From Pyrodictiaceae archaeon (lineage in GTDB: Archaea; Thermoproteota; Thermoprotei_A; Sulfolobales; WANQ01), in assembly GCA_015521735.1 (NCBI GenBank), contig WANQ01000043.1, positions 59,187 through 123,186 of the forward strand: a stretch of DNA of 64,000 bases. Reading direction: 5' to 3'. The translations under genes and the position numbers were made by a program. Numbering within the stretch: the stretch's first letter is position 1; each line of letters opens with the position of its first letter. Of this stretch, positions 1 to 14,751 are shown piece by piece. Under the pieces are notes generated by a model. The model saw nothing but the letters and a program-made list of their open reading frames with translations. It was not told the DNA's origin and searched no databases.

Positions 1-1270
1 TTCCAGTCTTTATCAATCCTCTCTTAACAGCCTCTAGTATACCCTTTACTTCATAAGGTCCTACAGCTTTAACATACCCATATGTTTTAGGCATTATTTC
101 TCCATCAGGTTTACTAGGTCTTAGGTCTTTTAGATCCATCTTTTTCAGCATTACTTGTAATTCTCTTGTAGTTATAACGTGTTCTCCATGTAGTTTTCTT
201 GCAACACATTGCGTTATTAGTACACTATGATATCCTAGTCTTGGTGTTGGTGGACGTACAAGGTATTTCCTTAGTTCAGGGTAGAACTGGTTTACATACT
301 TGTATTCTGCTTCGCTTACTGGCACTATGTTTAACTCGTGTGTGAGCTGTATGTCTGCTAAAGGCGACCATATTATTATCCTAGTAAATCCTAGTTCTCT
401 AAGCGCGGTAATAACCTTACCAGGATCTACTTCTTCTGCTTCTGCTAGTGCTGCTAATGCTTCTGGCTCTATGTATGCTATTGGATTATGTTTTGAGAGG
501 AGCCCTTGAACGTTTTCTATATCATTTCTGTAAACTAGGGCTCCTACAGGACAGTAAGCTGTACATAAACCACATAGTATGCATGTAGTGTTCTCAAATG
601 GCTCATAGAATGGTGTTGCAACTGCTATGTCTATTCCACGGTTAACGAATCCTAAAGCATTTACACCTAGACTACTACATACTCCAACGCATCTACCACA
701 AATAATACATTTATCTGCATGGAGCCTTAGTATCTTACCCCTAATATCACGTAAGTATTCACGACAGAACTCAAATCTCCTCTCACCTTGCTTAAACCAT
801 GATCCTCCCACTATCTTGGCTATGAGTTCTACTAACTCCCACTTGTTAATTGGGCATCCTCTTAGCCAGTAATCAACTCTAACATATCTTGAAATAGGTT
901 CTCCTTCAATGATTCCTTCATGCTTCTCTTCGCTTCCATAGACTTTCTTTACTCCATTAATGCTTCTTCCTTTCATAAGCCCTGGTATTCCTCCTAGGAG
1001 ACTACATGTACCTAGGGCTACTAGTATCTTCGCCTTTCTCCTAATCTCCTTTAGCTTCTCAGCATCCTCTATGGAAGCTACTGCTCCTTCAACGAATACT
1101 ATATCGTATTCCTCTCTTTCACTAGTATAGCCTAAAAGAGGTTCATAGGCTATTTCTATACCGTATTTCTCCATTAACTCGATTAGCTTCTCACCTAGAT
1201 TAACTATTTCATGCCTACATCCCTCGCATCCTGCTAGAGAGTATATTCCTACAATAATTTTGTCTGCCAT
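1..1270 (-). CDS. Chimeric hydrogenase subunit: [NiFe] small-subunit N-half + 2x[4Fe-4S] + [FeFe]-hydrogenase-like domain (3' end outside window)
   Basis: The frame is open from ATG at 1270 to the window edge (423 codons), so the C-terminus is missing. Residues 1-150 match the proximal-cluster half of a group 3 [NiFe] small subunit: C15 and C18 (AGCEGC), C89 (GTC), C139 (GCP). Residues 188-198 and 230-240 are two CxxCxxCxxxC ferredoxin motifs. From about residue 265 the chain resembles the large-subunit C-terminal domain of [FeFe] hydrogenases (PF02906 type), with a segment like VLTTREL followed by a GGVMEA-like region (VGPYEVKGILEA). The usual double-Cys loop is replaced by VSEAEY and only one Cys of the next loop remains (C355), so an H-cluster looks unlikely; the third loop lies outside. 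It is last of the visible operon, 16 bases after the large subunit. A hybrid electron-transfer subunit is inferred. Confidence 0.8.
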   Translation of the reverse strand, partial: MADKIIVGIYSLAGCEGCRHEIVNLGEKLIELMEKYGIEIAYEPLLGYTSEREEYDIVFVEGAVASIEDAEKLKEIRRKAKILVALGTCSLLGGIPGLMKGRSINGVKKVYGSEEKHEGIIEGEPISRYVRVDYWLRGCPINKWELVELIAKIVGGSWFKQGERRFEFCREYLRDIRGKILRLHADKCIICGRCVGVCSSLGVNALGFVNRGIDIAVATPFYEPFENTTCILCGLCTAYCPVGALVYRNDIENVQGLLSKHNPIAYIEPEALAALAEAEEVDPGKVITALRELGFTRIIIWSPLADIQLTHELNIVPVSEAEYKYVNQFYPELRKYLVRPPTPRLGYHSVLITQCVARKLHGEHVITTRELQVMLKKMDLKDLRPSKPDGEIMPKTYGYVKAVGPYEVKGILEAVKRGLIKTG

Positions 1271-1286
1271 GGATTTATACCTCAAC

Positions 1287-2558
1287 TTATTGTTTAACTA
1301 CAACATGGACAGCACATGGAAGACATGGATCGTATGCTCTAACAAGCATTGACAAATACTTTTTAGCTTCAACTACGTCTAATTCTCCTTCAACTATCTT
1401 CTTACCCAAGGTCATAGCTGAGTGTTCTATGTGGAGGGCATTCATTGCTGTAGGCGTTATTATATTAGCGTATACTACTCTACCCTCACTATCAACCCTA
1501 TAATGATGTATGAGTAGTCCTCTAGGTGCTTCAAGTACTCCTACTCCTTCACCACTACGTATGGTGTATTCTGTTCTTAGCCTAAGATCCCTATCTTTCA
1601 GTTCATCTAGCTTCTCCTTAACATCCATTATAGTTGCTAGTATTTCTAGTGCCTTAGCCTTAATGTTGGCGTAGGGATTGTTTAGTTCCTTTACAATAGA
1701 TGACACGTAGTCCTCTAATCCTACTAGTCTCTCACCATACTCCAACACTCTTGCACGTGAGCCAACATAGAATACTCTACCATTATATCTGTAAACCTTG
1801 GAGTTTGAGTAGTCTACTACCTCCTCTGAGATATACTTAGGGTAGTCTACGGCCCTGAACTTCTCCCCAGTAGACGATAGAATATAGTCGCCTATGGAGA
1901 GATAGCCTATAGGTGATTCAGATACAAGGTATACTGGTGAAGGATCTACTAGTTCTGGTAGTTCAAGCCTAGTTACATGGTCTACTACTTCTCTTGCAAG
2001 CTTCTCTGCCTCACCTAGTATCCTCACAGCTTTCTCTACTTTATCCTTTGAAGGCTTCTTTGTAAATCCTCCAATTCTATAAGTATTCGGGTTTACTATC
2101 CTACCTGCTAATAGCTCAACTACTTGTAAGCATAAGTTGTTTAGCTTAAACCCTACTTTAATTAAGTCTGGATTCCTTGATAGAAGCTCTGATAAAGTCC
2201 TAGCATTATAGTAGTCTGGTAGTGCTAGGAAGAATAAGTGTACTACATTGTTTTGTGCTACCTGTATCTTGTTCATGGATTCTTTTAGCAGTATTATATC
2301 ATCTGGTAGCTCTACTCCCAGCGCGTTTTCTATTGCTGTAATCGATGCTAAGAAATGTGCTATACTACATGCTCCACATATTCTTGACGCTATTATTGGT
2401 GCTTCATCTACTTTTCTACCCTCTATTACAGCTTCTATAAGCCTCATATCATGTACTACACGGAATTTTGCGTCAACACTACCATTCCTTAAGCTTAGCC
2501 TTAACTCTAGGTGTCCGAATACTTTATCTATTCTCTCGCTTAGCTCGAGATAGCTCAC
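1287..2558 (-). CDS. [NiFe]-hydrogenase large (catalytic) subunit, group 3-like
   Basis: This 423-residue protein carries the Ni-Fe site. The N-terminal motif RICGAC gives C61 and C64 with H68 nearby, and the C-terminal motif DPCLPC gives C412 and C415. The DPCxxCAxH arrangement is that of cytosolic group 3 (Mvh/Hox/sulfhydrogenase) enzymes, where a protease trims the tail after the His; only five residues (VVVKQ) follow H418 here. The length is normal for the group. The ATG at 2558 overlaps the stop of the upstream gene by four bases, so translation is probably coupled. No hyp maturation genes or maturation protease are in the window. The substrate is presumably H2/protons, with electrons exchanged through the neighbouring Fe-S and flavin subunits. 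Confidence 0.93.
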   Translation of the reverse strand: MSYLELSERIDKVFGHLELRLSLRNGSVDAKFRVVHDMRLIEAVIEGRKVDEAPIIASRICGACSIAHFLASITAIENALGVELPDDIILLKESMNKIQVAQNNVVHLFFLALPDYYNARTLSELLSRNPDLIKVGFKLNNLCLQVVELLAGRIVNPNTYRIGGFTKKPSKDKVEKAVRILGEAEKLAREVVDHVTRLELPELVDPSPVYLVSESPIGYLSIGDYILSSTGEKFRAVDYPKYISEEVVDYSNSKVYRYNGRVFYVGSRARVLEYGERLVGLEDYVSSIVKELNNPYANIKAKALEILATIMDVKEKLDELKDRDLRLRTEYTIRSGEGVGVLEAPRGLLIHHYRVDSEGRVVYANIITPTAMNALHIEHSAMTLGKKIVEGELDVVEAKKYLSMLVRAYDPCLPCAVHVVVKQ

Positions 2559-3226
2559 TTCTTTTCACCTCCATTATAGGTTTCTAGTAATATGTTGTAG
2601 ATCTTGTCTAGGCTTGGGTGATTATTCCAGAATAACTTCATCTTAGAGAATACTTCTTCTAATGGTATTTTATGCTCCTTGTAGAGCCTAGCCGCCTCAA
2701 CTAGTACGTCTCTACGTGTTATAGGGCCACGACATCCTATACATATAGTTCCTTCTCTAGTACAGGGGCTACCACAACCAGCTATAGTTATTGGGCCTAG
2801 GCATGGTTCTCCTCTTACTAGTAAACACTCGTTTCCGTGGAGAGGGCATTCAGCACATACTGGTATGCCTTCTACACCATATTCTCTTGCTAAGTCTAGT
2901 AGTTGGCAGAATCCGCCTTTCCTTGGACAAGACTGGCATTTAATTTTATGGGATGCTAGTATTAGTTCTAGTATTACTCTACGGTTACGTCTAACTCTCT
3001 CTGTATTAGTGTAGACTCTTAGCCCCTCTGATACAGGGTAGGCGCAAGCTGGTACTAGTCTACCGTTACCTAGTTCTACAATACATATTCTACATGATGC
3101 TTCACGGTATATTCCCTTGAAGAAGCATAGTGTTGGAACACTATATCCAGCCTTAATTACAGCGTCAATTATATATGATCCCTCCCCTACTTCTACTTCT
3201 TTATCATTAACGTAGACCTTAACCAT
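2555..3226 (-). CDS. NuoG/HoxU-like Fe-S protein fused to the distal-cluster half of a [NiFe] small subunit
   Basis: Residues 1-80 form a plant-type [2Fe-2S] domain (C34, C45, C48, C61). H93, C97, C100 and C107 form the His-Cys3 [4Fe-4S] motif of NuoG/HoxU. Instead of the usual next ferredoxin domain, residues 124-165 hold eight Cys (C124, C127, C134, C142, C151, C155, C162, C165) within text such as GEPCLGPITIAGCG and CIGCRGP. That is the signature of the C-terminal half of Mvh/sulfhydrogenase-type small subunits, which binds the medial and distal [4Fe-4S] clusters. The matching N-terminal half is in the protein at 1-1270. The order makes this the electron wire between the flavin subunit and the Ni-Fe site. 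The ATG at 3226 follows the NuoF-like stop by nine bases. Confidence 0.85.
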   Translation of the reverse strand: MVKVYVNDKEVEVGEGSYIIDAVIKAGYSVPTLCFFKGIYREASCRICIVELGNGRLVPACAYPVSEGLRVYTNTERVRRNRRVILELILASHKIKCQSCPRKGGFCQLLDLAREYGVEGIPVCAECPLHGNECLLVRGEPCLGPITIAGCGSPCTREGTICIGCRGPITRRDVLVEAARLYKEHKIPLEEVFSKMKLFWNNHPSLDKIYNILLETYNGGEKK

Positions 3227-3235
3227 ACCGTATTA

Positions 3236-5191
3236 TCACCTCTTCTCAACTGCTCCTACAGGACAAACAATATAGCATTGACCACAGTGAATACACTTTG
3301 ACTTATCAATTACATGGGGCTTACCTAGTTCACCTGAAATAGCTTTAGATGGACAATTTCTTGCACAAGTACCACATCCAGTACATTTGTCAGGGTTAAT
3401 CCAGTACTCTACTAGCTTAGTACATACTTTTGCAGGACAACGCTTACTACGAACATGTGCTAGGTACTCGTCCTTGAAGTATCGTAGCGTTGACAATACT
3501 GGGTTAGGGGCTGTTCCACCGAGAGCACATAAGCTTGAACTCCTAATTACATTTCCTAGCTCTTCTAGTACTTCTAGATCCTCTTCACTTCCTTCACCAT
3601 TAGTTATCTTTTCCAGTATATCGTAGAGTATCTTCATCCCTATGCGGCATGGGAAACACTTGCCACAGGATTCTGCTACAGTAAAGCTTGTAAAGAACTT
3701 AGCTACATCAACCATACAGCTATGGTCATCTATTACTACTATTCCACCAGAACCCATTATTGCTCCAGCTTTCTGCAATGTCTCGTAGTCTATTGGTGTT
3801 GATAGTAGGCTTGCAGGTACACATCCACCACTAGGCCCACCTATCTGTACTGCTTTGATTTTCCTACCTTCTGGTGGTCCTCCAGCAATCTCTACTACTA
3901 GCTTCTCTATTGTTGTCCCTACTGGTACTTCGTAGGCACCAGTACGTTTAACTGAACCCGTTACACAGAACATCTTAGTACCCTTAGTCTTCTCTGTACC
4001 ATACTTGGCGAACTTCTCCCATCCCTCAGCCATTATCGTTGCTACATGAGCTAGTGTCTCAACATTATTGATTATGGTAGGTTTACCCCATAGTCCACGT
4101 GTTGCTGGATAAGGTGGTCTTTGCCTAGGCCTAGTCCTCCCCTCTATTGCTGCGATTAACGCTGTTTCTTCTCCACATACAAAGGCTCCTGCACTAAGGA
4201 TTACTTCTACGTCAAAGCTAAAGCCTCTTCCAAGAATATTGTCTCCTAGTAGACCATACTTTCTTGCCTGCTCAACAGCTTTTGATAAGCGCTCAGCCAT
4301 TAATGGTTTTTCTGCTCTAACGAATATGAAACCCTTACTCGCACCTATGGCGTAGGCTGCTATTATCATTCCCTCAAGTACTCGGTGGGGATCTGATTCT
4401 GCTAGCAATCTATTCATGAATGCTCCAGGGTCTCCTTCATCAGCATTCATTATAATGTACTTGACGTCTCCTGGTTGCTCACGAGCAATCTTCCATTTCA
4501 GCCACGTTGGGAATCCTGCTCCTCCACGTCCACGTAGACCCGACTTCCTTATCTCCTCTATTACTTCCTCAGGCCTCATGTTTAGTGCTCGGTCTAGTCC
4601 ACGGTATCCTCCAAGAGCTATGTACTCCTCTATTGACTCTGGATCAACTATTCCACAGTTCCTTGAAACCCATCTTACCTGATTCCTCCATGGCTCAAGC
4701 TCGTCTAGTAGTGGCACCTTGTCTTCTCCTTTCGCATTACCAGTACGATTCCTTAATGCAAAAGCACTTGATACATCTCCTTCAAGGTATTCTTTTATAA
4801 TTCTTGGCACATCACTTGGCTTAACATTAGCGTAAATCGCTGAAGGCATACCCTTCTTAGACAGCTCTATCCATGGATCTATGTAGCACATCCCCATACA
4901 TCCAGTTCTATGTATATCAGCTAGTATTCCACGTGACTTAACCTCTTTAACAACAGCTTCGTAGACTTCGTGTGCTCCAGCAGCAATAGTACAGCTAGCA
5001 AGTGGTACATTTATCTTAAACCCATGTCTACCATATCTTATCTCTTTAAGTCTTCTACTCCTCCTGACACGGCATTCAACGTCTTCGTGACATAACGGTC
5101 CACTTAGTCTACACCTAATATAGTGGCGACAAGGATACTCAGGGCTATGCCAACATCTATTACAACACTTATCCATTAATGTCCAGGTCAA
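3236..5191 (-). CDS. NuoF/HydB-like flavin subunit (FMN, NAD(P)H, Fe-S)
   Basis: This 651-residue protein has the layout of HydB of trimeric bifurcating hydrogenases: a thioredoxin-like [2Fe-2S] domain (about 57-130), the NuoF 51-kDa core (about 180-590) and two C-terminal ferredoxin motifs (C603-C613 and C633-C643). The FMN/NADH loops are visible (GLRGRGGAGFPTWLKWK near 218, GAFVCGEETAL near 335, GLWGKPTIINNVET near 367). The core [4Fe-4S] motif is SCGKCFPC near 508-515 with C555. Two oddities stand out. The first of the four thioredoxin-domain Cys is missing (V62; C67, C98 and C102 remain), and an extra Cys-rich tail occupies residues 9-40 (seven Cys). It probably oxidises NAD(P)H or reduces NAD(P)+ and passes electrons on. 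It overlaps the NuoE-like gene by four bases. Confidence 0.92.
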   Translation of the reverse strand: MTWTLMDKCCNRCWHSPEYPCRHYIRCRLSGPLCHEDVECRVRRSRRLKEIRYGRHGFKINVPLASCTIAAGAHEVYEAVVKEVKSRGILADIHRTGCMGMCYIDPWIELSKKGMPSAIYANVKPSDVPRIIKEYLEGDVSSAFALRNRTGNAKGEDKVPLLDELEPWRNQVRWVSRNCGIVDPESIEEYIALGGYRGLDRALNMRPEEVIEEIRKSGLRGRGGAGFPTWLKWKIAREQPGDVKYIIMNADEGDPGAFMNRLLAESDPHRVLEGMIIAAYAIGASKGFIFVRAEKPLMAERLSKAVEQARKYGLLGDNILGRGFSFDVEVILSAGAFVCGEETALIAAIEGRTRPRQRPPYPATRGLWGKPTIINNVETLAHVATIMAEGWEKFAKYGTEKTKGTKMFCVTGSVKRTGAYEVPVGTTIEKLVVEIAGGPPEGRKIKAVQIGGPSGGCVPASLLSTPIDYETLQKAGAIMGSGGIVVIDDHSCMVDVAKFFTSFTVAESCGKCFPCRIGMKILYDILEKITNGEGSEEDLEVLEELGNVIRSSSLCALGGTAPNPVLSTLRYFKDEYLAHVRSKRCPAKVCTKLVEYWINPDKCTGCGTCARNCPSKAISGELGKPHVIDKSKCIHCGQCYIVCPVGAVEKR

Positions 5192-5718
5192 CTACCACCA
5201 CCTTTAATCTTCTTCAATGCTAGTGAACGATATTTTGCAACAATACGTCTAGCATCACGTATGGTTACATGCCCGTGAAGGTACCGCTCCTTACCATCCC
5301 TACTAATAACCATGACTACCGGTGCTAGACTACATGCACCAAAACATCTCGCCTTCTCTACACTAACCGTTCCATCCTTTGCAGTATTCTCGTATTTCCC
5401 TAAACCCAAAAACCTCTTCATAGCCTCATAATTGTCTAGATTACCTTTAAGATGACAAGCCGTGCCCATGCAGACTAGTATTATATAATACCCAGGTGGC
5501 TCAAGCTTAAACTGGTGATAGAATGTTGCAACATTAAGTACCTCACTTAACGGAATACCTGTTAACTTTGCAAGCTCCTCCAATGCTCTTCTAGGCAAAT
5601 AGCCATAACGACTTTGTATCTCCTGTAACATACGCATAAGATACCTTCTCTCACCACGATACCTAGCAACTATACTAGATACCACGTTGACTACTGTTTG
5701 ATTAACCAACGCATTCAC
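5188..5718 (-). CDS. NuoE/HydC-like [2Fe-2S] subunit
   Basis: The 176-residue protein has the 24-kDa NuoE fold: a helical N-terminal domain (about 15-70) and a thioredoxin-like [2Fe-2S] domain with C83-x4-C88 (CMGTAC) and C125-x3-C129 (CFGAC). It is the first gene of the hydrogenase operon and partners the NuoF-like flavoprotein. The start is GTG at 5718; no strong ribosome site precedes it. An AT-rich segment (minus strand, about 5762-5772) could be the TATA box, giving a leader of roughly 20 bases. A 22-bp inverted repeat lies about 95 bases upstream of the start. Confidence 0.92.
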   Translation of the reverse strand: MNALVNQTVVNVVSSIVARYRGERRYLMRMLQEIQSRYGYLPRRALEELAKLTGIPLSEVLNVATFYHQFKLEPPGYYIILVCMGTACHLKGNLDNYEAMKRFLGLGKYENTAKDGTVSVEKARCFGACSLAPVVMVISRDGKERYLHGHVTIRDARRIVAKYRSLALKKIKGGGS

Positions 5719-9619: not shown

Positions 9620-10525
9620 TTACTCTCTCTTGTAGGGTCTACCTACGTGTGCTGGTGGTCTTGACCTACCTATTAGTCCTGCTACTACTGCTATTGTTGC
9701 TATATAGGGTATTGTATTCATGAGTGTTACAGGTATTATTGCTTTTATTGCTGCCATGTTCTTTATCCACTCTGCTAGTGTCCAGAAGAATCCGAATAAT
9801 GCTCCTCCACCTAGAGCTAGTATTGGGTTCCAGTTAGCAAAGTTTACTAGAGCTAACGCTATGAATCCACGCCCTGCTGGTAACTCCTTAGTTATTGCTG
9901 CAAGCCAGTCTATGCTTAGAAATGCTCCCGCTAAACCTGCTAAAGCTGCACCGTAAACTGCTGATAATAATTGAGTTAACTCAACGTTAACTCCGACAAC
10001 ATCTGCTGCTTCAGGGTTTTCTCCTACAGCTCTTATCTTTAAGCCTATACTGGTCTTGTATAAGAGATAGTATGTTCCTATGGTTATCAATATCATTACT
10101 ATGAATAATGGGCTTATCTCTATGCCTGGTATAATTGGGACTTTTGCTTCTAGTGGTGGTGTATAGTATCCTCTTACACCCCATACAGCTTCAATACCAA
10201 ATGCCACTGTTCCTAATGCAAACAAGTTAATTCCCAGGCCACTAATAATGTGGTCTCCTTTAAGGTAAGCTGTTATGTATCCATGGATTAAGCCTATTAG
10301 TGCACCCATACCTATTCCTGCTAATACTCCAATCCATGGATTCATAGCCATTTCAGCAAATACTACTGCCATGAACCCTGATAAGAGCATTATTCCCTCT
10401 AATCCTATATTGACTATGCCTGCTCTCTCAGCTACAATCTCACCTACAGCTGCTAGGATGAGAGGTGTCATTGCATAACTTGTTCCACGTAGAATATCAA
10501 GTATCATAACTAATTCTTCTGTCAT
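9620..10525 (-). CDS. ABC transporter permease, BMP/nucleoside type (NupQ-like)
   Basis: A 301-residue membrane protein with about eight hydrophobic segments. The sequence EIVAERAGIVNIGLEGIMLLSG is split typically for the BPD_transp_2 family of nucleoside importers, and GENPEAADVVGVNV is the cytoplasmic loop that contacts the ATPase. It is the second permease of the importer; its ATG at 10525 overlaps the first permease stop by four bases. The final tail (RPPAHVGRPYKRE) is cytoplasmic. Confidence 0.92.
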   Translation of the reverse strand: MTEELVMILDILRGTSYAMTPLILAAVGEIVAERAGIVNIGLEGIMLLSGFMAVVFAEMAMNPWIGVLAGIGMGALIGLIHGYITAYLKGDHIISGLGINLFALGTVAFGIEAVWGVRGYYTPPLEAKVPIIPGIEISPLFIVMILITIGTYYLLYKTSIGLKIRAVGENPEAADVVGVNVELTQLLSAVYGAALAGLAGAFLSIDWLAAITKELPAGRGFIALALVNFANWNPILALGGGALFGFFWTLAEWIKNMAAIKAIIPVTLMNTIPYIATIAVVAGLIGRSRPPAHVGRPYKRE

Positions 10526-11628
10526 AGCTCAACACCTCTTCTCCTAATCATTCTTCTACGAATAAGTCTAATTAAACCAGGCATGGCCAGAGCCCAAACA
10601 ATTATGCCTTGAACAGCTTTAACCATTTCTAATGGTACTCCTGCAGTTGTTTGCATACCACGTGATCCAGCTGATAATGCTCCAATAAATATTGCTGCTG
10701 GTATTATCCCTAATGGATGATTTGCACCTATAAGTGATACAGCTATTCCATCAAAACCGTAGCCAAAGAGATTCGATAAACCTGTAGTTATGGCGTAACT
10801 TGGTGGTCTACCAGTTATCTCGCTTACACCTGCAAGTCCTGCAGCAATACCTCCTATAATGAATGCCCATAGCATTGTCTTCTTAGGATTAATACCTCCA
10901 TACCTAGCTGCTGTGGGGTTAAGTCCTGTTGCTCTTATCTCGTATCCTAGCACCATATGCCATAGCAGATAGTATACTATAAATACTGTTATTATAGCTA
11001 TAATGAAGGATACTGAAAGCTCTGTACCCCTTATTAGTAATGGTAGTCTTCCTGGAGGAGGCATGCTAATGGTTTTTGAAGCATCTATAGGGTTAGGATA
11101 AACGTATACTCTAGCGTATTCTACTATCCAGAATGCAATCCAGTTCAACATTATAGTTGATACAACCTCGTTAACGCCTCTCAAAACCTTTAGTAGACCT
11201 GCTATTAGACCCCATGCTGCAGCTAATAGTGATCCTACGATAAATGCTAATGGGAGATACAATGGTCCTGGTAGAGTCCATGATGCTACTATTACTGCTC
11301 CAAGTGCTCCCATGTACATTTGTCCTTCAGCACCAATGTTGAAGAGACCTGCTCTTACACCTATAGCAAATGTTAGCGCTGTAAGCATTACTGGTGTTGC
11401 AAAGCTAAGCGTCATAGCGATATAGTATGGGTCTGTGAGACTAAGTGATGTTTCAAACATTGCAGCATAAGCTTTTATGGGGTCAAAACCCCCCATATAC
11501 ATCATGAGTCCTGCTATGACGAAGCCTACTATAATAGCAAATATTATTTCAACTAACTTTTCAAGAGTACCCTTAAGGAGTACGAGTTTTCCTTTTAAAC
11601 TACTTAAGCTACCCATGTAGATCACCAC
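10522..11628 (-). CDS. ABC transporter permease, BMP/nucleoside type (NupP-like)
   Basis: A 368-residue membrane protein of the BPD_transp_2 family. FNIGAEGQMYMGALGAV and ATGLNPTAARYGGIN are the family's conserved segments, and about nine membrane helices are visible. It pairs with the downstream permease to form the channel for nucleosides or similar solutes. The start may be GTG at 11628 or the ATG four codons later (GSLSSLKGK follows). It lies 12 bases after the ATPase gene. Confidence 0.92.
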   Translation of the reverse strand: MVIYMGSLSSLKGKLVLLKGTLEKLVEIIFAIIVGFVIAGLMMYMGGFDPIKAYAAMFETSLSLTDPYYIAMTLSFATPVMLTALTFAIGVRAGLFNIGAEGQMYMGALGAVIVASWTLPGPLYLPLAFIVGSLLAAAWGLIAGLLKVLRGVNEVVSTIMLNWIAFWIVEYARVYVYPNPIDASKTISMPPPGRLPLLIRGTELSVSFIIAIITVFIVYYLLWHMVLGYEIRATGLNPTAARYGGINPKKTMLWAFIIGGIAAGLAGVSEITGRPPSYAITTGLSNLFGYGFDGIAVSLIGANHPLGIIPAAIFIGALSAGSRGMQTTAGVPLEMVKAVQGIIVWALAMPGLIRLIRRRMIRRRGVEL

Positions 11629-11640
11629 GTACGAGTTTTC

Positions 11641-13209
11641 TTAAGAGGCTTCAAGCACTTTACGATTTGAAGAAGTATTCTTTAATTGATCCATGTGGTA
11701 GCCTCCCATCATTAATCCTATTTGCTCTTCTGTTAGTTCTTCGGGTTTGGCTATGCCCATGAATTCTCCTTCATACATTATTGCTACTCTATCACTTAGC
11801 TGTAATACCTCATCTAGGTCAGCTGAAACTAGTAGTACTGCTTTACCTTCATCTCTCATCTTTATCAGTATTTTACGTATATATTCAGTAGCTGCCACAT
11901 CTAATCCACGTGTTGGTTGTGCAGCAACTATTACTACTGGTGTCTTGCTAAGTTCTCTTCCAACTACTAGTTTCTGCTGGTTACCTCCACTAAGACTTCT
12001 TGCTGGTGCACGTACTCCTGGTGCTACTATTTCGAATCGCTCAATAATTTTCTTTGCATGTACGTTAATGTTTTTCCACTTCATGTTTAATAACTTGCCT
12101 ATGAATTTTTTCAATCTATGTATACCGAGTACACTGTTCTCGGCAACAGTCATGTCTAGTACAAGGCCTAGCTTCTGCCTATCTTCTGGTATGTGGCTTA
12201 AACCCATGCGGTATAGTTCTGATGGAGGCTTATTGGTTACATCCCTACCCATTAATATAACCTGGCCTTTCTCAACTCTTCTTAGCCCGGTTATTGCTTC
12301 AACTAACTCTGATTGACCATTACCCTCAACTCCTGCAATACCAAATATTTCTCCAGAATATACTGCAAACGATACGCCTTTAACAGCCCATCCTCCTAGA
12401 TCACTTCTAACCCATAGATCCTTAACTACTAGTACTGGTTCACCTGGACGTGCAGGTTTTTTCTCAATCCTAAACACTACTTCCCTACCAACCATCATCT
12501 TAGCAAGCATTTCAGGAGTTGCTTTACTAGTTTCTACTACTCCTACAACCCTTCCTCTACGGAGAACTGTAACTCTATCGGTAACCTCTAATACTTCTCT
12601 AAGCTTATGTGTTATGAATATGATAGTCTTACCTTGCTTTTTCAAATTCCTTAAGGTTTCAAAGAGTTCTTTTGTTTCAATTGGTGTAAGATTAGTTGTA
12701 GGCTCATCAAGTATTAGTATATCGACGTTTCTGTAAAGCATTTTAAGTATCTCTATTCTCTGTCTTACACCAAATGGTAAGTCCTCAACTTTAGCATCTA
12801 AGGGGATTTTTAGACCAGTAGTCTCCATCAACTCTTCTATTTTCTTACGATCAATTACCTTACCTGGTAGCCCTAATATGATATTCTCGTAGGCTGTAAA
12901 TGCTGGTACTAGTGCTAGGTGTTGGTGAACCATTCCAATACCGTGTTTTAATGCTTCACTAGCACTCTTAAAATGCACTTTTCTTCCACGGATATAGATT
13001 TCACCAGAAGTTGGTCTAAGCAATCCTGACAGTATTTTCATTAACGTTGTTTTACCTGCACCATTTTCTCCTAGAAGCCCATGTATTTCTCCTTTCTTTA
13101 CCTCAAAGTCTACTCCACGTAGTGCAACTGTTCCATCGGGGTATACTTTGACTATATCCTTCATGTACACTATTGTATCATTTCGTGGCAAGGAACTACG
13201 CCCCAACAA
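11641..13209 (-). CDS. ABC transporter ATPase with two nucleotide-binding domains (NupO-like)
   Basis: Two ABC domains lie in one 522-residue chain, as in ribose and nucleoside importers. The first has Walker A GENGAGKTT and Walker B ILILDEPTT, with FGVRQ in place of the LSGGQ signature, as is usual for the N-terminal half of this family. The second has an imperfect Walker A (GVEGNGQSE) and a proper LSGGNQQK signature, so the sites are asymmetric. The longest start is TTG at 13209; GTG or ATG starts just before MKDIVKVYPDG (about codons 14-16) would remove a non-conserved leader. It powers the two permeases downstream. Confidence 0.92.
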   Translation of the reverse strand: MLGRSSLPRNDTIVYMKDIVKVYPDGTVALRGVDFEVKKGEIHGLLGENGAGKTTLMKILSGLLRPTSGEIYIRGRKVHFKSASEALKHGIGMVHQHLALVPAFTAYENIILGLPGKVIDRKKIEELMETTGLKIPLDAKVEDLPFGVRQRIEILKMLYRNVDILILDEPTTNLTPIETKELFETLRNLKKQGKTIIFITHKLREVLEVTDRVTVLRRGRVVGVVETSKATPEMLAKMMVGREVVFRIEKKPARPGEPVLVVKDLWVRSDLGGWAVKGVSFAVYSGEIFGIAGVEGNGQSELVEAITGLRRVEKGQVILMGRDVTNKPPSELYRMGLSHIPEDRQKLGLVLDMTVAENSVLGIHRLKKFIGKLLNMKWKNINVHAKKIIERFEIVAPGVRAPARSLSGGNQQKLVVGRELSKTPVVIVAAQPTRGLDVAATEYIRKILIKMRDEGKAVLLVSADLDEVLQLSDRVAIMYEGEFMGIAKPEELTEEQIGLMMGGYHMDQLKNTSSNRKVLEAS

Positions 13210-13320
13210 TAATGTGATAGAATGTTACTTCCAGCCCTGACTCAGTGTGTGATAGAAGGGGGTAGTTTGGGATAAAAAACTAGTGGTTTAAACAAGTATA
13301 TTCTATTGTCAATGCTTGAG

Positions 13321-14751
13321 TTAGCCTGCTGGTACTCCTAGTTTCTCACGTATTTGCTTAATCTCGTTAGCATCTAATGGTATCATCTTCTCAATATCAG
13401 AGAACTTTAAGCCCCATACAGCTACGTCTGGAGTAGTCTTTAGCTTTTCTGCTAGTTTGTCAACCTCCTCCCATATCCATGCTGGTATACTCTCTCTCAT
13501 CTTCTTAACCTTCTCTATTATCTCGGTCTTGTTTACCTTTCTACCTGCTTGCTCTGCTATTGCTAGGAATGTTTCTAGGTCTTCTAGCTTACTTATACCT
13601 ACACCTCCCTCCTTGAGGCCTAGTTCTAGTACACCACCATACTTGTCTAGTTTACCTGCATAGTAGTCTAGTGCCCTCTGAACAGCTGTATACACACCTA
13701 CGTCTACGCGCTTCATCATGCTAGCGATTATGAATCCTGGCTTAATCCAGTCCTGGTCACTGTCAACACCGATCGCGAACGGTGGTCCCATGTCTCTACC
13801 CTGTGCTTTACCAGCCTCTTCTACTGCTTCGAATATTCCTAAACCAGTAGCGCCAGCAACGTTGTATACTATACATGCTCCTTGTGCTAGCTGTGCTTCA
13901 GTTGCAGTCTTACCTCTTGCTGGATCATTAAATGCTCCAGTATATGTCCAGAGCACGTTTAGCGGCTTAATTTCTTTACCTGTGTACTCCTTGTATATTT
14001 CTTCACCGTATCTTATACCCCAATAGTATCCTGCTTCGAACTTGTATAGTACTGGTATCTCCATTCCTAGGACTACTCCTACTGCTGAGCAGTTGAAGTA
14101 GTGGGCTACCATTCCAGCTAGTGCTCCAACTAGAGCACTACCCTCATGCTCCTTGAACAGTACGCTTAGAACGTTAGGCTTGTCTGGTATGTATCCGTCA
14201 ATTATAGCGAATAATTGGTCGGGGTATTCGTCTGCTACTTGTTTTACTGCATCTGTCATTAGGAATCCTACTGCTACTATTACTAGGTATTCACCTGTTC
14301 TAGCAAGGCTTCTTAGGTTTGGTAAGTAGTCTGCTTCAGTCTTGCTCTGTACTTCTACTAGCTCTAAGCCAAAGTCCTTTGCTGCTCTACTACCACCTAG
14401 GTATGCCATGTCATTGAAGCTTAGGTCTCCTCTACCACCTATGTCGTATACTACTGCTATCTTCTTTCTAGGCGGCTTATAGGTTGGTGTAGGTGATGGG
14501 CTAGGTGTTGTAGTAGGACTCGGTGAGGGAGTAGTGGTGGGTGAAGGCGTGGTTGTTGGTGTTGGAGATGCTGCAACAGTTGTTGTGACTGTGACTGTGC
14601 TTGTGACAGTCTGTGTTACTGTTTGTGTTATTGTTGTTGGTGCTCCAGCCATTGTTCCAGCATAATATGCTGCTATACCGACAACTATTATTAACACGAT
14701 GAATATGGCTGCTAGAGCTGAAGTTGATATAGCCTTATATAGTTTTCTCAT
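13321..14751 (-). CDS. BMP-family substrate-binding protein
   Basis: An N-terminal membrane segment (about residues 9-33) is followed by a Thr/Pro/Ser-rich linker (about 38-92) of TPSPSPT repeats, then the BMP fold beginning at KKIAVVYDIGGRGDLSFND. This is the typical archaeal form, anchored by one helix and a probably glycosylated stalk, in place of a bacterial lipoprotein; no lipobox Cys is present. The domain matches PnrA/Med-type nucleoside-binding proteins. It is the first gene of the importer operon (binding protein, ATPase, two permeases), separated from the ATPase by 111 bases. Confidence 0.92.
   Translation of the reverse strand: MRKLYKAISTSALAAIFIVLIIVVGIAAYYAGTMAGAPTTITQTVTQTVTSTVTVTTTVAASPTPTTTPSPTTTPSPSPTTTPSPSPTPTYKPPRKKIAVVYDIGGRGDLSFNDMAYLGGSRAAKDFGLELVEVQSKTEADYLPNLRSLARTGEYLVIVAVGFLMTDAVKQVADEYPDQLFAIIDGYIPDKPNVLSVLFKEHEGSALVGALAGMVAHYFNCSAVGVVLGMEIPVLYKFEAGYYWGIRYGEEIYKEYTGKEIKPLNVLWTYTGAFNDPARGKTATEAQLAQGACIVYNVAGATGLGIFEAVEEAGKAQGRDMGPPFAIGVDSDQDWIKPGFIIASMMKRVDVGVYTAVQRALDYYAGKLDKYGGVLELGLKEGGVGISKLEDLETFLAIAEQAGRKVNKTEIIEKVKKMRESIPAWIWEEVDKLAEKLKTTPDVAVWGLKFSDIEKMIPLDANEIKQIREKLGVPAG

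Follow-up and report, generated by a model that had tools for sequence, protein, structure and literature searches.

A former H-cluster domain with, most likely, an iron-sulfur cluster still in place, in an archaeal hydrogenase operon where HydA and the [NiFe] small subunit appear to have exchanged halves

The window, a stretch of 64,000 nucleotides (G000:C43:59187-123186) from a Pyrodictiaceae archaeon, was analysed together with its left flank (L002); the genome is in 44 contigs and has a completeness of 100%. The left end of the window is occupied by a minus-strand hydrogenase operon (window 5718 to -137) with the gene order HydC/NuoE, HydB/NuoF, chimera B, [NiFe] large subunit and chimera A (Table 1). 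Residue numbering of chimera A begins with MADK, whose Met lies at window 1270 on the minus strand. Adjoining this hybrid operon, a divergent and intact group 3b sulfhydrogenase operon (beta, gamma, delta, alpha) is present at L002:3864-7845 on the plus strand. Thus, the delta subunit occurs in one genome in two states, intact and split.

Table 1. Features of the hybrid hydrogenase operon and of the H-cluster-like domain (window positions unless marked L002)
Feature	Position	Strand	Basis or remarks
Chimera A (468 aa)	1..1270, then 138 bp (stop included) beyond the left edge to L002:7864	-	Domain and Cys alignments
Parts of chimera A			[NiFe] small-subunit N-half, aa ~4-160; HydA two-[4Fe-4S] F-domain, aa ~165-262; H-cluster-like domain, aa ~262-468
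H-cluster-like domain, part in the window	1..502	-	PF02906, HydA1 profile match, fold match
Loop 1 of the domain, VPVSEAE	305..325	-	Replaces TSCCPxW; Ser319; no Cys
Loop 2 of the domain, Cys355	206..208	-	TQCVARK (HydA: MPCTAKK); Cys in 20/20 chimeras
Loop 3 of the domain (C430, C434)	L002:7864-8000, outside the window
[NiFe]-hydrogenase large subunit	1287..2558	-	RICGAC and DPCLPC metal-ligand motifs
Chimera B (223 aa)	2555..3226	-	HydA N-half, aa 1-~121; [NiFe] small-subunit C-half, aa ~121-221
HydB/NuoF-type flavoprotein	3236..5191	-	Electron-bifurcating (Bfu) core type
Parts of HydB/NuoF			N-terminal thioredoxin-like domain, FMN/NADH domain, HVRSKRCPAKVC site, two C-terminal [4Fe-4S]
HydC/NuoE-type [2Fe-2S] subunit	5188..5718	-	

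The large subunit possesses both motifs that supply the metal ligands of group 3 [NiFe] hydrogenases, RICGAC and DPCLPC, and the four Cys of the small-subunit proximal cluster are found in chimera A (Cys 15, 18, 89 and 139). The best full-length PDB matches of HydB are bifurcating-type HydB, NfnB and HydABCSL-B chains (alignment over residues 60-649), and the protein features an HxxxxRCPAxxC site as well as two C-terminal [4Fe-4S] motifs. Together with HydC, the thioredoxin-like N-domain, FMN domain, Cys/His B2 (or Zn) site and two [4Fe-4S] clusters make up the architecture of the Bfu/HydABC type. Judged by these motifs and matches, the complex that harbours the domain resembles a [NiFe] hydrogenase of the electron-bifurcating kind. 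As a side observation, the large subunits of seven related loci (L040, L042, L044-L046, L048 and L049) terminate exactly at DPCLPC[AS]VH, so that no C-terminal peptide would have to be removed in nickel maturation, and that of the window extends five residues beyond this end.

The two chimeric genes flank the large subunit and are complementary in their make-up. Chimera B aligns with residues 7-127 of A. woodii HydA1 (4.7e-24) and then with residues 161-260 of the sulfhydrogenase delta subunit (8.7e-20); its HydA half has the ligands of a [2Fe-2S] and a His/Cys3 [4Fe-4S] cluster, and its small-subunit half has eight Cys for two [4Fe-4S] clusters. Chimera A starts with the N-terminal part of delta and continues with HydA from about residue 120 on. 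Jointly, the two genes hold HydA once and delta once, cut at ~120 and ~160, respectively. These alignments indicate a reciprocal exchange of halves between HydA and the [NiFe] small subunit, giving HydA-N with small-C in one protein and small-N with HydA-C in the other. Chimera B has each of its 16 cluster ligands unchanged in 18/18 sequences, and chimera A has Cys 15, 18, 139, 188, 191, 194, 198, 230, 233, 236, 240, 355, 430 and 434 unchanged in 18/18 as well; Cys89 is kept in 17/18. In the chimera A of G063 (L047), the position of this Cys89 is taken by Asp. As the genome is in 44 contigs, the fusion or half-exchange might be suspected to be an assembly misjoin, but 15 complete operons of identical gene order and domain make-up are present in genomes that were assembled independently and belong to several families of the phylum. 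By this recurrence misassembly is ruled out as the origin of the fusion, and its probability is negligible. Fusion of [FeFe] and [NiFe] parts is present in 20 archaeal sequences.

The C-terminal domain of chimera A is homologous to the H-cluster domain of HydA. In hmmscan, where PF02906 has its cutoff at 22.1 bits, the domain scores 38.5 bits (1.3e-9) and the whole of chimera A 34 bits. A genome-wide PF02906 search without a match proved to be a false negative of the fast filter, as the direct hmmscan of the protein is clearly positive. Moreover, a profile built from 19 archaeal domains matches T. kivui HydA1 across the entire H-domain at 3.1e-28, and CpI, DdHydA and CrHydA1 at 1e-13 to 1e-20. 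An AlphaFold2 model has a mean pLDDT of 91, and among the 50 PDB matches listed in a fold search with this model only [FeFe]-hydrogenases appear, with a query TM of ~0.7. A reading made earlier from the letters of the window had proposed an H-cluster domain within a [NiFe] operon and had named the lack of a detectable PF02906 match as evidence to the contrary. The domain match above cutoff, the HydA1 profile match, the fold match and the neighbouring large subunit with its RICGAC and DPCLPC motifs agree with that proposal.

After its ferredoxin motifs, chimera A contains YPEL (~aa 331-334), C355 within TQCVARK, ITTREL (366-371) and VGPYEVKGILEA, followed outside the window by TIVLYICPNGCIMGGGQPYSRSP, with which the left part of the reading frame supplies the third H-cluster loop with both Cys. 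This loop is complete, with C430 and C434 in CPNGCIMGGGQP. The HydA-like spacing of the YPEL, ITTREL and VGPYEVKGILEA blocks, the single Cys of loop 2 (present in 20/20 chimeras) and the position of the last loop beyond the window had all been read correctly from the sequence, and the left flank now adds that the last loop is whole. Regarding loop 1, the earlier view that it lacks Cys holds, and its register is revised: VSEAEY had been taken as the loop, but a gap-free count back from YPEL aligns VPVSEAE with TSCCPxW. In this register Ser319 takes the second-Cys position, and Glu takes the position of the Trp.

Comparison of 59 bacterial HydAs with 20 archaeal chimeras shows what has been lost and what has been kept. 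The first-Cys column of loop 1 is Cys in all 59 bacterial proteins and mostly F, A, Y or R in the chimeras, among which only G280 and G063 have Cys. The Trp column is Trp in 59/59 against Glu in 19/20. The Met residues of loops 2 and 3, each found in every bacterial HydA, are both lost from every chimera, with Thr in loop 2 in 18 of the 20. TSC is likewise universal in loop 1 of the bacterial set, and chimera A with its VPVSEAE does not have the proton-transfer Cys. Furthermore, the FGxTGGVMEAALR segment of the [2Fe] pocket is absent from all 20 chimeras. The stretch missing for the [2Fe] subcluster amounts to ~70 residues; loops 2 and 3 are 69-84 aa apart in the chimeras and 140-156 aa apart in the bacterial HydAs, and the length of the H-domain is down from ~300 to ~207 aa. 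Nevertheless, all 20 chimeras retain the Cys of loop 2 and the two of loop 3. Only 9 of 166 well-filled columns of the domain are invariant, three of which are those of C355, C430 and C434, and the median identity among the 20 archaeal relatives is 30%.

The second-Cys column of loop 1 demands a separate consideration. The Cys directly before the loop-1 Pro is a predicted ligand of the cubane, and the Cys preceding it is the proton donor (PMC12138974). This ligand column is Ser in 39 of the 59 bacterial HydAs, which read TSCSPGW, and Cys in 20; among the chimeras it is Ser in 19 and Cys in one (G063). A change from Cys to Ser was considered as the sole key loss and rejected, since most bacterial HydAs have it too. 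Because it is not decisive, the lost first Cys, the pocket residues, the deleted segment and the maturases count instead. Ser at this column is common in group A (PMC11406978), so Ser319 may itself serve as a cluster ligand.

The maturases were searched with T. maritima as the positive control, which was above cutoff each time. HydG had zero matches in the 23 genomes searched, HydE had none above cutoff in the same number, and HydF had none above cutoff in 20 genomes; the HydF-like matches covered only the GTPase domain, were all below cutoff and were set aside. In the complete genome of the window itself none of the three is above cutoff. With loop 1 devoid of Cys, the [2Fe]-pocket residues and FGxTGGVMEAALR missing and no maturases above cutoff, the H-cluster is almost certainly absent from the domain and the hydrogen-splitting centre lost. 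A working H-cluster assembled by unknown maturases could appeal to the intact loop 3, to the IPCCYS that G063 keeps in loop 1 and to the ACP or ECP kept there by relatives with an unexchanged operon. It is very improbable in view of the maturase searches and of the proton-transfer Cys, pocket Met and Trp, and FGxTGGVMEAALR segment that chimera A lacks. The sequence-only reading had held that a full third loop together with hydEFG would speak against its claim; the loop is complete, and no maturase was found above cutoff. The case warns against equating a PF02906 match or an intact third loop with an [FeFe]-hydrogenase, a point of relevance when archaeal metagenomes are surveyed for hydrogenases.

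The same reading had offered a non-catalytic structural relic as one interpretation. Its loss of the H-cluster stands, and the relic finds no support, as the third loop is complete and three Cys are invariant across the 20 chimeras at such low identity. A domain without any cofactor that merely holds subunits together would be compatible with the lost loop-1 Cys, the shortening by about a third of a domain once ~300 aa long and the lack of maturases above cutoff. A scaffold, though, needs no ligand Cys, and these Cys remained while most other positions, [2Fe]-pocket residues included, changed; the relic is therefore unlikely. Their persistence while the [2Fe] pocket went points to selection for keeping a cluster site, which makes it most likely that an iron-sulfur cluster is still bound in the domain. 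The Cys of loops 2 and 3 could also have been retained for another metal.

Clusters in which three Cys are combined with a non-Cys fourth position recur where one Fe has to stay accessible to a substrate. The domain might accordingly be conceived as a second active site beside the [NiFe] site, with a site-differentiated cluster (three Cys and one open Fe) or another metal doing chemistry. Such coordination, the Glu at the loop-1 Trp position in 19/20 chimeras and two relatives with both chimeras and no large-subunit gene in the operon would fit this explanation. It is considered improbable, as no conserved substrate-site residues were identified and Ser is also usual in this column of canonical HydA, so that Ser319 may simply be the fourth ligand. 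The two relatives are G056 (L035) and G024 (L038), in whose exchanged operons chimera B and chimera A are not separated by a [NiFe] large-subunit gene, so that the unit may function in another manner in them. Complete loss of the large subunit was suspected for both; homologues at 33-34% identity occur elsewhere in their genomes. Such a homologue adjoins a PAPS-reductase-domain/ferredoxin protein in G024 and G016 (L172, L173), with no small subunit detected nearby. The operon of G016 (L050) is disrupted by many in-frame stops and frame changes, is apparently decaying or poorly assembled, and gave no large-subunit match.

The reading preferred here, which is held as probable with a fair margin for error, is a soluble group-3-like [NiFe] hydrogenase on a bifurcating HydB/HydC core, with exchanged HydA and small-subunit halves and a former H-domain that carries a bare [4Fe-4S] cluster. 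The exchange would have taken place in an ancestor of the archaeal lineage. H2 would be cleaved at the [NiFe] centre in the large subunit, from which electrons would pass to the proximal cluster in chimera A, to the two delta-C clusters and the His-ligated cluster in chimera B, back to an F-domain cluster of chimera A, to the [2Fe-2S] of chimera B and finally to the FMN of HydB, which would deliver them to NAD(P)+ and ferredoxin. Beyond the metal-site assignments, these steps follow from homology to NiFe-HydABCSL (PMC8880783). Two neighbouring subunits would thereby have swapped halves with every cluster ligand retained, the electron path running in a zigzag. The [4Fe-4S] of the H-cluster-like domain would most likely be held by Cys 355, 430 and 434, its fourth ligand being Ser319 or solvent, and would lie at the end of the A2-A4 branch, matching the place of A5 in A. 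mobile HydABCSL. It may store electrons or serve for tuning, and may also hold the complex together.

Archaeal 'hybrid' hydrogenases with fused [FeFe] and [NiFe] parts were reportedly described from ten archaeal orders by Greening and co-workers in Cell in 2024. The locus very probably belongs to this set, with which it has the fusion of [FeFe] and [NiFe] parts in archaea in common. These hybrids and NiFe-Bfu are the closest known kinds. Nar1/NARF are H-cluster-domain proteins without the [2Fe] subcluster that function in cytosolic iron-sulfur assembly in eukaryotes, and it is this lack of the subcluster that the present domain shares with them by general description. The NiFe-HydABCSL of Acetomicrobium mobile (7T2R/7T30; PMC8880783, PMC9304861) shares the bifurcating HydB/HydC core and the [NiFe] S/L module. 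Its HydA also has no H-cluster and holds the A5 [4Fe-4S] at that position, at a branch end, in a holoenzyme that bifurcates (PMC8880783). However, its HydA and HydS are separate and intact whereas halves are exchanged here, and its HydS has one cluster whereas the small-subunit parts here have ligands for three. The archaeal H-domain profile gave no match to 7T2R chain A up to E = 10; the C-terminal domain of that chain is thus not detectably the same. In the [FeFe] HydABC enzymes (T. kivui 8A6T, A. woodii 7Q4V, T. maritima 7P5H), HydB, HydC, the HydA N-half, the F-domain and the H-domain are homologous, but the H-cluster is active, while H2 chemistry is assigned here to the [NiFe] large subunit. 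With the group 3b sulfhydrogenase (Pyrococcus SHI; 9E15, 9NEZ) the large subunit and both delta halves are homologous; here, in contrast, delta is cut at ~160, its halves are fused to HydA halves, and beta and gamma are absent.

An unexchanged HydA-delta-alpha arrangement exists in three relatives (G023, G047 and G194), in whose genomes HydG was not found. Their ACP or ECP in loop 1 keeps the ligand Cys and has lost the proton Cys. In the tree, exchanged forms constitute one clade (support 100/99), unexchanged forms another (100/99) and canonical HydAs a third (97/96), and G063, the sole chimera whose loop 1 has CC, branches close to the base of the exchanged forms. The simplest history is that HydA joined the [NiFe] complex, lost maturation and underwent one half-exchange with delta, after which the domain shrank and Ser became fixed. 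One operon type would offer a natural series from an active-type H-domain through four-Cys forms without maturases (unexchanged forms and G063) to the shrunken three-Cys form. That the H-domain was turned into a three-Cys (plus Ser) [4Fe-4S] holder after a reciprocal half-exchange, with neither conversion nor exchange described as such before, is put forward tentatively and is somewhat doubtful as a whole.

Several minor observations were also made. A genome of the same phylum (G237, 96% complete) encodes a canonical HydA with TSCCPAW, MPC, CPGGC and an Fe_hyd_SSU domain at L171:7910-9724; of the two maturases searched there, HydG gave no match and HydE none above cutoff. By eye, a serpin-like protease-inhibitor protein is recognizable close to the hydrogenase cluster (L002:1366-2652). 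Also by eye, window 9620-14751 encodes a BMP-type lipoprotein, an ABC ATPase and two permeases, which probably form an importer of nucleosides.
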